Shown one piece after another: positions 9,415 through 18,261 of a DNA stretch of 24,730 bases. A model generated the notes under the pieces. The model was given only the letters and a program-made list of their open reading frames with translations. It did not search any database and had not been told where the DNA came from. The number at the start of each line of letters is the position of its first letter. Position 1 is the stretch's first letter. A program made the translations under genes and the position numbers. The DNA is from a virus. The stretch lies in the IMG/VR virus record IMGVR_UViG_3300005526_000028, positions 1-24,730 of that record. One strand, given 5' to 3'.

Positions 9415-12156
9415 TCACTCAGTAAGACTTACCTTGAGTGTGGTCAAGCCTACACCTAATGCATCAGCTACCTCAGCCTGTGTGTACCCAGAGTTCAACA
9501 TAGCCTGAGCACGACGTACCTTACTGCTTGTCATTGTTGGTGTATGCTTGGGCATAGCCAATACCTTAACGGTATCGCTATCACTATTGTTCAGAACTCT
9601 TTCCAGTTTAGAGGGAGTGATTGCACCAGCTTGAATAGCATTCCACTCCTCTTGAGTAAGATCGATCTTATACTTCTTTGCACCTGTTCTAACTCTTGCT
9701 GTATTCAACTCCTGTTGTCGAATCTTCTTCTCTTCAGCAGCCTCGATCTGTGGGTTAACCTGTTTCTTCTGGGAGACATTGGCGTTTGCTAACAGGTGGG
9801 CCTGTCTTTCGTAGGGGGCATTCTTCTCGGCCCGGTTAAGTTTAGCATTAATTGAAGCCACTTCGGTTTCGTATACCTTCTTGGCTGACTTAGAATAGGG
9901 GGTACCTTTAATCGTTACTGTTTCTTTCCTAGCTTCATTAGCCAAAGCTTTTAGTTTATTAGAGTGAGTTGCATAGAGTACTTCCATAGAGGTAGGAGTA
10001 CGTTCTTTCGGAATGACATCGAACGCGTCATCAACTACAGCCAGCTTTCGATGTTCTTCTTTCCTTTTAATCTGTACTCCAGTTTTAACGGTGACCATCT
10101 TTCCTGTCTTAGGATCCTTTACACGTTTACGTTCTGGAAACGTACGTCCAGTTGGTTCGAAAACTTTCTTGCCTGTGACAGGATCAATCGGTCCACCTCT
10201 TGCTGCAGACCTAAGTCTTCTCTCTTCTATGCGAATGGGCGATTTTTTCCTACTGATTATGGTCTGAGCACCTGCTCGCTTCGAACCTTGATACTCTTCT
10301 TTCAAATCAAGAATACCATGATCTTTCTCTGACTGAGCAAAATCAAGCCCATGTTTTTCCGAATCAATAACAACCATGGAGTGTCTAATCGCACGAGAGA
10401 GTTTATCTGTATCCGCTCCTTGAAGAGTCATGTCCGTAATTAGATTGGAGATTTTACCCATCTCATTTTGTTTGCGAGCATTAGTAATACGAGGAATGGG
10501 AGAATCTTTGGGTAGTTTATAGGTCATCGGATCGAAGCCCTTCAATCCTTCTAGAGCAGCGGTACTTTCAATCTTTCCACTCTTGTTAGGAATGATAAGC
10601 ACCGTATCACCATCGAAGTCTGCACCAGACAAACGTTGTGCAACCTTATGATGAATACCAACAGCATCGTGTCTCGTACTATCAGCACCAGTTCCGATTA
10701 GCTTGCGTGCTTCACGATTGCGATTATTCACTGTCAGTTGAGGAATTTCAAATGTTCCACCATGAGGATAACGAACCAAAACAACACGGTCGCCATCTTT
10801 GAAGGTGGGGGCATAAATTTCAGTTGGTTTCATGGATGGAACGGGAATTAGAACTTTAGTTGCTTGTCGCGGCAAAGCGGCAGACTTAAGATGTACAGCT
10901 GCAGCATCGGTTTGATCTGCAAATTTCTCAAGCAAATCTTTCCGAACTGTTGGATTTGTGAGCGCATTGATTTCATCGAATTCTCTTTTGCGCCGATCGT
11001 AAGTTAGATCAAGTTGCTGCTTTGCTAGAGCTGGACTTTGCTTAGACAGAAACTGGGACGAAAGATTTCGAGACCAAGTATCCCATTGACCTTCTTCTCC
11101 AGATCCTTCTTTAGTTGGACTGCCAACTAGATTCATAGCCGAGGTAACATTACCCGTTTTTGGATCATGTACTTGTCGAATGATAGAACCAAACGGAAGA
11201 TCCGGATCTTCAGAGATTGGTTTCATAGCATCTTTTTTACGTCCGGTATCAGCAGCCTTTGTATTAAAGATCAGATCCTTGCCCGGAGGAAGATCCTCCT
11301 TATAAACCGCCATGCCTTTCAAGTAGTGTGTACCATCAACCAAGATTCGAACTTGACCGTAACGATTGTTTCCAATAGCAAGATCGGGTACACCAGGACG
11401 AACATAAATCATGCCATCTGCCTTAGCACCTTCTTTACCGTAAACAACACCGATTCGTCTAGAACCAACGGAAAGAGGAGCCTGAGGACTAAAGTAACTT
11501 CGACCATGATCGATCGACTGTTCTTGAATCTGTTGAATTTCTCTTCTGTTTTGCTGGACTTCAGAAAGCTTAGTGCCTGGTCGAGCCAATACCTGCATCG
11601 GTGTAAACTTACCACGAATGTTAACTTGCTCAACATAAATGGTATGAACGGGGTATCCTTGTTCCTTCAAAACAGCAAGCGCATTATTGAGTCGAGAATT
11701 AGTAATGCCTAGTTGATGTTCAACACCTTTACCTACATCAACATACTTCTTCTTATCGACTTGCTCCTTGAGCATATTGGCTGTGGTCTCGAGTGCACTC
11801 GCCTTATCTTTTGCACCTGGAGAAAGCCAACCACGAATTGTCGATTCGGGATGACCCATACGTTCACCAATTGCGGTATTAGACCAACCCTTATCTTTCA
11901 GACGCTGCGCAGTAAGAATATTCGTTTGTCGCTGCTGAGCAAGAGCAACTGTTCGAGCACCACGAAGTTCTTTAATCGTAATACCCATACCATCGGCAAT
12001 TTGTTTTTCAGTCATCCCTTGCTTTTTTAAATTAGCCGCCATATCGAGAAAGTCTCGATTGCGCTTATTTTGAGTACCACCAGATCCCCAAGGATAACGG
12101 CCGGAACGTCGGAGGATACCGTAATGCGCAAGATGATCCTCATGAGTACGAATCAC
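9415..12156 (-). CDS. RNA-polymerase-like protein (double-psi beta-barrel, DFDGD motif) with helix-turn-helix segments
   Basis: This 913-residue protein carries the catalytic signature of multi-subunit-type and YonO/QDE-1-like RNA polymerases. YPHGGTFEIPQLTVNN is followed by VAQRLSGADFDGDTVLIIP; Asp513, 515 and 517 match the Mg-binding aspartates of NADFDGD in bacterial beta-prime. The N-terminus reads LAHYGILRRSGRYPWGSG (9-26). Helix-turn-helix-like segments lie at about 47-68 (MTEKQIADGMGITIKELR), 90-110 (GWSNTAIGERMGHPESTIRGW) and 888-911 (GYTQAEVADALGVGLTTLK), and the middle C-terminal region is Lys/Arg-rich. It starts at a GTG overlapping the RecB-like gene (GTGA) after GGAGGAGTC. A role in late or virion-carried transcription is plausible; activity is not shown by sequence alone. 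Confidence 0.75.
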   Translation of the reverse strand: MIRTHEDHLAHYGILRRSGRYPWGSGGTQNKRNRDFLDMAANLKKQGMTEKQIADGMGITIKELRGARTVALAQQRQTNILTAQRLKDKGWSNTAIGERMGHPESTIRGWLSPGAKDKASALETTANMLKEQVDKKKYVDVGKGVEHQLGITNSRLNNALAVLKEQGYPVHTIYVEQVNIRGKFTPMQVLARPGTKLSEVQQNRREIQQIQEQSIDHGRSYFSPQAPLSVGSRRIGVVYGKEGAKADGMIYVRPGVPDLAIGNNRYGQVRILVDGTHYLKGMAVYKEDLPPGKDLIFNTKAADTGRKKDAMKPISEDPDLPFGSIIRQVHDPKTGNVTSAMNLVGSPTKEGSGEEGQWDTWSRNLSSQFLSKQSPALAKQQLDLTYDRRKREFDEINALTNPTVRKDLLEKFADQTDAAAVHLKSAALPRQATKVLIPVPSMKPTEIYAPTFKDGDRVVLVRYPHGGTFEIPQLTVNNRNREARKLIGTGADSTRHDAVGIHHKVAQRLSGADFDGDTVLIIPNKSGKIESTAALEGLKGFDPMTYKLPKDSPIPRITNARKQNEMGKISNLITDMTLQGADTDKLSRAIRHSMVVIDSEKHGLDFAQSEKDHGILDLKEEYQGSKRAGAQTIISRKKSPIRIEERRLRSAARGGPIDPVTGKKVFEPTGRTFPERKRVKDPKTGKMVTVKTGVQIKRKEEHRKLAVVDDAFDVIPKERTPTSMEVLYATHSNKLKALANEARKETVTIKGTPYSKSAKKVYETEVASINAKLNRAEKNAPYERQAHLLANANVSQKKQVNPQIEAAEEKKIRQQELNTARVRTGAKKYKIDLTQEEWNAIQAGAITPSKLERVLNNSDSDTVKVLAMPKHTPTMTSSKVRRAQAMLNSGYTQAEVADALGVGLTTLKVSLTE

Positions 12157-14235: not shown

Positions 14236-14245
14236 CCTCCTTCCT

Positions 14246-14550
14246 TTGCCAAGATTTTTGCCAAGATTTCTTGAAGTAGTGCAATCCCTTTGTTCATGCG
14301 GGTTTGAGCCCTATTTTCCTTGCCAAGATTTTTTGAGGAAGAACTCTCTATAGATTCTCTAGTTAATATCTATTATTAGGTATTATATATATTATCTTTG
14401 GGGTCGCGCGTGGGTATAGAAAATTAGATACTATATGACATTCCCTAGGGGACTTTTTGGACGTGTTTTCTTGGCAAGCAAAATTGCACAAAATCCCTGC
14501 AAAATGCGGCTTTTCCTATAATTTAAAAATCTTGGCAAAAATCTTGGCAA
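14246..14550. repeat. Mirror-symmetric array of six TTGCCAAGAT repeats around an AT-rich core
   Basis: Copies on the plus strand are at 14246-14255, 14258-14267 and 14320-14329. Copies on the minus strand are at 14468-14477 (one mismatch), 14529-14538 and 14541-14550. Each outer pair has a 12-base period, and the left and right halves mirror each other about position 14398 to within one base. The core (about 14341-14420) is AT-rich (TATTATATATATTATC) with TATAAT-like sequences. The gap between helicase and next gene holds nothing else convincing. Iteron-type origin, operator cluster or partition site are all possible. Confidence 0.7.
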
Positions 14551-14566
14551 CGCTGTTTTATGACTT

Positions 14567-15748
14567 TCAACTCATATTTTTCAGTGTTTCGATCGGAAAT
14601 TTGGCGACATTGAAATTCTGTTTTGCTTTCAGACTCCGCCAGATTGCAGTGTCGACCGCGTTCTTACTTTTTAAAGTATAGTAGTAGAGATCCAGGAATG
14701 GTGTATTCAGTCGATCAATTCTACCATGTGCTTGTTCCCAGTTCTTGTACGAATAGGTCAATGAGTAGAAAACGATCGTATCGGTCTCGATGCAATTCCA
14801 GCCTTCTGAGCCCGCTACGTACTGAACTAGATAAACCCAGTTATTACCCTCAGGGATCTCTTCGTGCTTGTGTCCATTCCACTCAGCTACCGCTGTAACG
14901 TCCTCTAAAGCCCGTAGACGCTCTAACTCATAGTTAAAGTTATAGAACACTACCAGCTTAGGATGCGTGCTTAGAAGCTCTCTCACGGCTTTGACCCGAC
15001 TGGGATCACTATTCACAATTCGCCGTAAAACAGCAAAAGTTTCGCTGATATCACGGATCGGCCGATTCAGGAAAATGTTCCAGCGATTCTTCAATACGCT
15101 TTGAAACAGTTCCTCATTATGGTCGACTGGAATCGTGCGTGAATGGCGGGTAGTCAGCTTGGTGTAAGCCATCGGCACCAAGATCTGATTGCGATATCTA
15201 TTTAGACGACCGGTGTTCAGATAGCGCTCAACCTTAGGAAACTTGCTGAACGGCTTGTAGACCACGTGTTCGCGCTTGAATTCGGTCCGATTCTTGTAGA
15301 AACCGTTGGCGATGAAGACCGGGATATAGTCGAGCCAAGTATCCCCCGGAGTTGCAGAGAGCAGAATCCAGCGATTCTGGCGGGCAATCTTCAGAAACGA
15401 CTTTACCCAGGTTCCAGATCCAACCAATCTTTGTTCGTCGAAAATAAAGAAAGCACCGCTAACTTCAGTGTACTTATGGATGTTGTTCCAACTATCGACG
15501 GTCAGCAAACCAGAGACAGTTGCATCTCGTGTTTTACCGATTCCGTGAGGAGCAAACTCACCTTCCCAATCGAGCGTGTCACGTTTCTTGGCGGTAGTGA
15601 TCACATACACATCTCGTGGTCGCTCTTCCTCGATGTAGTAAGTTGCTGCTACTTGTGACTTACCTGAGCCAACCCCGCCCCAGAGAATTTTGCCATTAGC
15701 GAGCTGGTCGAGTGCAGATCTCTGATGGGGCTTAAGTTCCATACTCAT
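14567..15748 (-). CDS. SF2 (DEAD/SNF2-like) DNA helicase
   Basis: This 393-residue superfamily 2 helicase has a Q-like start ([12 protein letters not shown]), Walker A GGVGSGKS (24-31), motif II FDEQR (103-107; DEAD/H-box variant), motif III LSATP (130-134), and motif [13 protein letters not shown] (339-349) with arginine finger candidates. Between them lie motif Ia-type VITTAKK and motif IV-type [13 protein letters not shown]. It is a compact, complete helicase of the sort phages use for replication or recombination. Its start overlaps the stop of the 37-residue Cys-rich gene (ATGA). The repeat array begins just after its stop. Confidence 0.85.
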
Positions 15749-17110: not shown

Positions 17111-17173
17111 AATTTCCTTTCGTAGTAGTATCTATTATGATACGTGTAATTAATGCGAATTCTGTGGAAAAGC

Positions 17174-18005
17174 GGGCAAGAGACATCGTTGCGGCGGCCC
17201 AAATGCCTCTTGCCCTAGCTCCGAGGGGTTCAACCCACCTGTGGCGCAGAGTGGGCGTACCTCGGAGATTCAATCTAAGTCAGAAACAACGTTGAAGAGA
17301 CTGTGAGAGGAAGTGTTGTGGCAACTCCCGACCGAAGAGCTCACTGCCATTGTATAATAGCAATCAATTCTTCAGAGCCTTCTCTATCCTACCGGATCAC
17401 CGCTGTACTAGTTTGTAAAACTAGCCCAATACCTCCGCTCAGGGATTTCCCCATTGCTCGGGTATCTTTAATTCGGCTGCTACTAACGCTGCTTGCACAA
17501 CGCGTTTGCCGAGTCCCGCCTTCACGACTAACTGGCCGCAAGCTACAACCAGTATAGTCCTTTTCGAGCCACCTCACATCCCGCGGATACGAATAAGGTA
17601 GCTACTCCTTATCCACACCACTGGACTGTCTCCTCAACGTTGTTTCCGACTTAGTAGTTTGGAAATTTGACTGAAGGCCCCGCCGCAGTGAGGCCCTCAG
17701 TCTGTGATCGGGGGGCCGACCACTTATTTCCAAACCGAAGCTTATAGCTTAGAAGATAAGTGGCCTCCTGGGTGCTACCCAGGTACGGCGCTACCGCTGC
17801 CCCTCCGAACTTTTGAAACTTATGTCAGCCGCGTAATACCGTGCATCGTTTAGGCGGGTTCCATTTGGTATCGTACCGCTAACACTCTAGCCTCGCCTCG
17901 GTTGATCAGACCTCCCGCTACTAGAGCCCAGACAGAGCCGTGATCCCAGCATCCCAGCATGAGAGAAGCGGAACTCTGTCCTATCTCCGCGGGTGCCCCA
18001 CGGAG
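17174..18005 (-). ncRNA. Large structured noncoding RNA (about 830 nt), family not identified
   Basis: This stretch has no convincing gene but contains many long helices. Read right to left: 17985-17993/17997-18005; 17931-17937/17974-17980; 17885-17890/17921-17926; 17767-17773/17777-17783; 17720-17727/17756-17763, crossing 17657-17666/17726-17735 (a possible pseudoknot); and 17669-17681/17690-17702. A 27-bp helix (17275-17301/17628-17654) encloses small hairpins at 17593-17612, 17526-17559 and 17408-17424. Last come 17219-17226/17260-17267 and a 3' hairpin, 17174-17186/17203-17215, followed by CTTTT. Irregular pairs in five helices are G-U on the minus strand but A-C on the plus strand, which fixes the strand. 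Size and setting recall GOLLD and ROOL RNAs of phages; identity is untested. Confidence 0.85.
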
Positions 18006-18010
18006 GGTCT

Positions 18011-18199
18011 TTATCGCTTAGTCAAAGTGATCGCACGCAGGAGAGTAACGCCATGAGACTGTACATTCCAGCCGTCATTAATCAGCTTGCGAATCTCTCG
18101 GAACATCGATTCTTCATTGACAAGCTTCTTGCTTTCGCCGTCGGATCTCCGCCACTTTCCAAGCGTCTGCTTCTTGAAGAAGATTTGACGCTCCTCCAT
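18011..18199 (-). CDS. Small basic hypothetical protein (62 aa) upstream of the structured RNA
   Basis: The frame starts at an ATG five bases after AAGGAGGG, one of the best SDs in the window. The product begins MEERQIFFKKQTLGKWRRSD and ends NDGWNVQSHGVTLLRAITL plus TKR; it is basic with a helix-then-strand look. Its stop is only five bases from the first hairpin of the large RNA, so the two probably share a transcript. A terminator sits just upstream of its SD, leaving almost no room for a promoter. Family not recognised. Confidence 0.6.
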   Translation of the reverse strand: MEERQIFFKKQTLGKWRRSDGESKKLVNEESMFREIRKLINDGWNVQSHGVTLLRAITLTKR

Positions 18200-18216: not shown

Positions 18217-18254
18217 AAATAAAAAAATCAAAGTCCGTGAAGAACTCTGATTTT
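18217..18254 (-). terminator. Rho-independent terminator
   Basis: On the minus strand AAAATCAGAGTTC (18242-18254) pairs with GGACTTTGATTTT (18224-18236) over a five-base loop, with two G-U pairs that would be A-C on the plus strand, and is followed by a T-run reaching 18217. It ends transcripts of the 69-residue gene. The next gene's SD lies only about five bases further on, so partial readthrough is likely. Confidence 0.85.
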
Positions 18255-18261
18255 TGCCTTG

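Follow-up and report, generated by a model that had tools for sequence, protein, structure and literature searches.

GOLLD and ROOL are large and ornate phage RNAs whose carriers often have tRNA islands (PMC12286853), and theta ribozymes located beside tRNAs in gut phages have been proposed to cut polycistronic transcripts (PMC10879173). The description of manA RNA drew on marine sequences, on cyanophages, and on two gamma-proteobacteria and presents it as a candidate riboswitch for marine as well as cyanophage genes (PMC2864571). Here, we describe an array of RNA elements at positions 17174-18005 of record IMGVR_UViG_3300005526_000028 from an uncultivated tailed phage, of which the whole 24,730 nt were analyzed (referred to as the window). 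GOLLD and ROOL appear nearest to this array in size and setting, but the likeness is limited to its length and its phage origin together with the tRNA islands of its relatives; GOLLD and ROOL have one conserved architecture, whereas the units of our array recur separately and show no match to their covariance models. Theta ribozymes are the nearest functional precedent for small RNA elements of clusters like this. The phage tRNA islands that carry them (PMC10879173) are likewise clusters of small structured RNA genes that are co-directional with the phage genes, but neither tRNAs nor known ribozymes are present in the window, and the module of our array that we call module A has a different fold and a conjectural activity. 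Similarly, manA (RF01745) resembles module A as a phage-borne, intergenic, structured RNA, and a manA-like RNA even lies directly 3' of module A in the relative L093, but its fold is a different one and module A shows no gene specificity.

We consider it rather probable that the locus is a noncoding-RNA island, i.e., that at least four units, each folding autonomously, are arrayed on its minus strand and come and go independently from one phage genome to another, as is the case for the tRNA genes of phage tRNA islands. If so, in the place of the tRNA arrays of other phages this lineage would have islands in which several families of structured RNAs are shuffled, and such islands would offer a compact place to look for new ribozymes, regulators, or counter-defense RNAs.

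The window virus and its isolated relatives

The DNA polymerase of the window virus is 61% identical to its counterpart in Gordonia phage Schwartz33, and the gene order (polymerase, helicase, VRR-type nuclease, Cas4-like exonuclease, and a ~910-aa protein annotated as "RNA-dependent RNA polymerase") is similar to the one in Gordonia, Arthrobacter, and Streptomyces phages; we infer that the hosts are probably actinobacteria. A 52.7-kb IMG/VR contig carries the identical RNA and therefore represents the same virus. The genomes of the isolated relatives that we looked at are densely packed with genes and do not contain module A. An early/middle location of the array is plausible from its DNA polymerase, helicase, and SSAP neighbors.

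Two other features of the window are of note. The protein with the PHROGs annotation RNA-dependent RNA polymerase (913 aa, encoded at 9415-12156) has an HTH at its N-terminus, and an AT-rich noncoding gap at 14236-14566 contains copies of TTGCCAAGATTT in both inverted and tandem arrangement, including a perfect 24-bp inverted repeat (arms 14246-14269/14527-14550), making it a candidate origin or operator array.

A structured noncoding region on the minus strand

The minimum free energy of 17174-18005 is -370.4 kcal/mol on the minus strand, compared to a shuffle mean of -293.9 (z -9.93), and -293.1 on the plus strand (z -4.09). Of the 292 pairs in the minus-strand fold 47 are G-U, compared to 13 of 263 for the plus strand, and this excess is the pattern expected of a selected minus-strand RNA. 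A purpose-built hexamer coding model (not a standard gene finder) classified 17111-18010 as noncoding, and the longest inner ORFs (84 aa on the plus and 62 aa on the minus strand) have zero matches in Pfam or PHROGs. The region is thus real, minus-strand, noncoding, and structured. These results agree with a sequence-only reading that had proposed a structured noncoding RNA without convincing genes at this site and had assigned its strand from irregular pairs that read as G-U on the minus but as A-C on the plus strand.

Searches of Rfam with cmscan (E<=1 for the window, E<=10 for the region) gave no match to GOLLD, ROOL, OLE, HEARO, introns, or ribozymes, and neither manA nor any other Rfam family matched the window above its gathering score. 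Matches to mir-59, SNORD25, and CRISPR-DR41 were below threshold and discarded as chance. Neither ARAGORN nor Rfam gave a tRNA or tmRNA in the window, and BLASTN of the region and its modules against 50,697 phage records returned nothing useful. The region is therefore new to Rfam, as had been suspected from its sequence, though the literature that we checked comprised open-access papers, so that an earlier description is possible. In 5' to 3' order on the minus strand, the array consists of the following units:

17931..18005, minus strand: 5' Z-like unit, composed of a hairpin (17985-18005), an AUA linker, and a second hairpin (17931-17981); fold z -2.78

17818..17927, minus strand: module A, ~110-nt family with two adjacent hairpins joined through a pseudoknot, supported by covariance-model matches, covariation, and partner swaps

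17708..17808, minus strand: module B, cloverleaf-shaped four-way junction; fold z -5.21

17669..17702, minus strand: isolated 13-bp hairpin between module B and domain C; fold z -4.91

17275..17654, minus strand: domain C, 380-nt multibranched domain with a 27-bp closing helix; own fold z -8.97

17174..17267, minus strand: 3' Z element, a double hairpin composed of a hairpin (17219-17267), a CUA linker, and a 14-bp hairpin (17174-17215), followed by GCU; fold z -4.99

Initially, the region had been read as a single ~830-nt RNA akin to GOLLD or ROOL. One large multidomain RNA forming a single particle of this kind would fit the length, the very low folding energy, and the multibranched domain with its long closing helix, and the relatives have tRNA islands as is often the case for GOLLD and ROOL carriers (PMC12286853). 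However, A, B, and Z recur apart from each other, the full 832-nt architecture is present in no relative, and even a threshold of E 10 gave no Rfam match. We regard a single particle as very unlikely and the first interpretation as unsupported in this respect; instead, the array is a mosaic of units that differ in phylogenetic distribution.

Module A as a putative new family of pseudoknotted RNAs

The module A family was started from sequence similarity linking the window to L093, L096, L011, and L014, and these first five sequences contained 10 compensated pairs (0/500 shuffles). A covariance model then reached more divergent relatives and a second pattern scan added others, with many contigs removed from the set as chance matches inside coding DNA, before a refined covariance model yielded 22 distinct members in 21 viral genomes. 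Wherever the strand was checked, members lie on the strand of the phage genes. Two-sided compensatory changes are seen at 20 of the 25 modelled pairs compared to 13.4 in shuffles, none of which reached 20 (0/500). Moreover, 95.9% of cells are paired, there are 119 two-sided cells versus 33 in shuffles, and pairing falls to 28-48% once partners are slid. Given that the single-sequence fold of module A is weak (z -1.2), its support comes from covariation and not from energy.

The pseudoknot pairs GCGGG of hairpin 1 with CCCGC of loop 2. It was spotted by eye, formed part of no model, and was not used in recruiting members, whose own pairings nevertheless outscore those with swapped partners in all trials (0/5000 swaps); swapping partners keeps motif composition but not relatedness, which makes this control strong though not perfect. 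Compensated versions include GCAGG/CCTGC in L011, AGTGG/CCACT in L028, GGACGG/CCGTCT in L013, AGCGAG/CTCGCT in L027, and GGACAGG/CCTGTCT in the second copy of L010, while the helix is not formed in a weak member (L115 5937-6028). The suspicion of a pseudoknot in this region thus proved correct at least inside module A. A different candidate considered at first, a P5 pseudoknot within hairpin 2 (CCGC/GCGG), was dropped because it fails in divergent members, which the helix between loop 2 and hairpin 1 accounts for instead.

Taken together, module A is an RNA family absent from Rfam 15, and apparently new, with a covariation-supported two-hairpin fold and a pseudoknot between the hairpins. It extends the families of Rfam 15 by one whose pseudoknot covaries as well, and, unlike an orphan RNA, modules common to several genomes yield testable alignments. 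No module A was found in isolated Gordonia, Arthrobacter, and Streptomyces phages or in bacterial MAG contigs.

In most relatives, module A stands alone in an intergenic position, often 6-12 nt past a stop codon and with its 3' end often 15-40 nt ahead of the next start codon or ribosome-binding site. It is followed by at least seven different genes or by directly adjoining RNA modules, i.e., module B in the window, the manA-like RNA in L093 (where module A also adjoins a tRNA T-arm-like module), and a further shared module in L010 and L124. Module A precedes too many kinds of genes to be a riboswitch for one of them, and its occurrence alone or beside varied modules shows that it is no obligate part of an 830-nt RNA. 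The further shared module (GGTGACCGA...CCTCGGGTGGA..AGCCCGC...TAGTAGGA, inside a closing helix) is found at 16878-16957 in L003, at about 13875-13950 in L010, and downstream of module A in L124.

As a compact, pseudoknotted, and intercistronic element with conserved unpaired positions, module A might represent a new class of self-cleaving ribozymes that cut polycistronic transcripts, and Pistol ribozymes are indeed found within noncoding DNA of relatives that are more distant (see below). Yet no conserved cleavage dinucleotide was identified in module A, it shows no similarity to known ribozyme models, and Rfam gave no known ribozyme match at five module A/B loci, so we consider a ribozyme unlikely. 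Most likely, module A would adopt a compact tertiary structure and have a protein or another RNA as its binding partner.

Module B, domain C, and the Z elements

The arms of module B comprise a 9-bp closing stem with a bulge, a 5-bp stem with a 3-nt loop, a 5-bp stem with a 7-nt loop, and one long arm. Its covariance model matched only the window and L003, which are 88% identical across 51 nt and differ in the neighbors of the module. Between these two sequences 3 of 25 pairs are compensated, which is not significant (60/500 shuffles). The cloverleaf shape and 7-nt loop of module B are a resemblance to tRNAs, not membership.

The 27-bp helix that had been proposed to close domain C over 380 bases is well supported, with 30-nt arms (17275-17304/17625-17654) that are 90% complementary; nowhere in the window is there a longer inverted repeat within 600 nt. 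Domain C is the largest part of the array, but a comparison to 50 related virus records detected no homologs, and a pair of pattern scans of IMG/VR retrieved the same virus only. The covariation among homologs to which the sequence-only reading had pointed as a check is therefore strong for module A, but falls short of significance for module B and finds no homologs to draw on for domain C. Among relatives, 25 of the 57 long stems of 24-36 nt lie inside noncoding gaps that make up 5.7% of the sequence, and those like the stem of domain C enclose about 60-340 nt. This concentration suggests that domain C may belong to a fast-changing class of long-stem RNAs.

Z-type double hairpins form both ends of the window array. 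A search for Z elements by their helices alone was unspecific (25 matches compared to 18-31 in controls) and a motif-first test was used for this reason, in which both helices were present at 12 of the 16 ATAGGGYRGG sense sites but at only 17 of 2200 random noncoding gap positions. The layout of the 3' Z element matches these 12 elements of relatives. Its 5' counterpart shares their hairpin-AUAGG-hairpin layout but is less canonical (GGACAGAG, without the CCCGCC end) and a weaker match than the 3' copy. The array had also been suggested to end in a hairpin with a T-run; while the hairpin at 17174-17215 is indeed strong, it is followed only by GCUUUUCC, and no intrinsic terminator was called. 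In relatives, Z elements are single occurrences between cistrons, just ahead of the next leader.

Such positions of the Z elements, together with the placement of module A between a stop codon and the next start codon or ribosome-binding site of varied downstream genes, would also be expected if the units were cis-acting intercistronic mRNA elements that tune flanking small genes (processing sites, exonuclease blocks, mRNA stabilizers, or antitermination sites), with the array as a dense run of them. However, module A is followed by RNA modules and not by a gene in both the window and L093, and an 830-nt run of unrelated folds exceeds the needs of a processing site. We view cis-acting elements as a possible but less probable explanation than a noncoding-RNA island.

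RNA islands in related viruses

Noncoding stretches of relatives contain tRNAs (L016, L018, L044, L047, L049, L059, L071, and others), and in L018 a virus-encoded tmRNA (9572-9886, tag ANDNVFALGSVQVSDRSLASAA) has tRNA genes and a manA-like RNA in its vicinity. Pistol ribozymes are found at L047 16501-16553, L049 14286-14351, L059 16219-16277, and L071 15607-15659 and 15830-15892, i.e., in noncoding stretches of more distant relatives on contigs that also carry tRNA genes. The manA-like RNAs (L016 13740-13962, L018 8014-8238, and L093 1382-1603) score just below the Rfam gathering score (37.8 bits for that of L093). With tRNAs, a tmRNA, manA-like RNAs, and Pistol ribozymes in stretches comparable to our array, we interpret these as RNA islands. 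The manA-like RNAs are located here in an actinophage-type lineage, compared to the marine and cyanophage origin of manA. A module resembling the tRNA T-arm (GGGTTCGAYTCCC) is part of larger noncoding folds in L001 (about 1600-1690), L014 (about 15540-15600), and L093 (about 1190-1270) and recurs at other places of the window virus; it is not called as a tRNA.

The tRNAs and tmRNA of relatives, like the cloverleaf shape and 7-nt loop of module B, could hint at units that are degenerate remnants of tRNAs or tmRNA. But no tRNA was called in the window or at the module A loci tested, module A has no tRNA features, and its strong covariation indicates that it is maintained, which argues against a degenerate remnant and makes such an origin exceedingly improbable. 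A bolder and doubtful proposal would be that module A and the units around it are RNA gene cassettes whose functional class is new, either a novel ribozyme or an RNA aimed at the host (a decoy of tRNA-directed or nuclease-based defenses), and that this phage lineage brings them together in shuffled arrays that replace tRNA islands, with domain C as a large new multidomain RNA.

Transcription of the array

Three features flank the array:

18011..18199, minus strand: ORF of a 62-aa gene directly upstream of the array, probably co-transcribed with it

18223..18255, minus strand: intrinsic-terminator-like hairpin ahead of the 62-aa gene (two found compared to 1.8 expected in shuffles)

17131..17147, minus strand: promoter-like ACACGTATCATAATAGA downstream of the array, predicted to serve the next small gene; the motif recurs before genes of relatives

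Homologs of the 62-aa gene are present in L002, L003, L010, L017, and L042, with other RNA elements after several of them. Directly ahead of the window array, no promoter-like site was detected, and L093 has one right ahead of its own; with no adjacent promoter-like site and a terminator-like hairpin before the 62-aa gene, transcription of the window array is assumed. In the noncoding-RNA island that we favor, the array would be transcribed together with two small upstream genes and each unit would fold while being made, with long stems and terminal hairpins protecting the units or marking them for processing. The units would then last as stable RNAs that work independently of any given gene.

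At several sites in L001, L011, L014, and L093, promoter-like ACAnnnnnTATAATAGA or CTATAATGAA is followed by leaders with a short hairpin and T-run before ribosome-binding sites, and these may be attenuator leaders.
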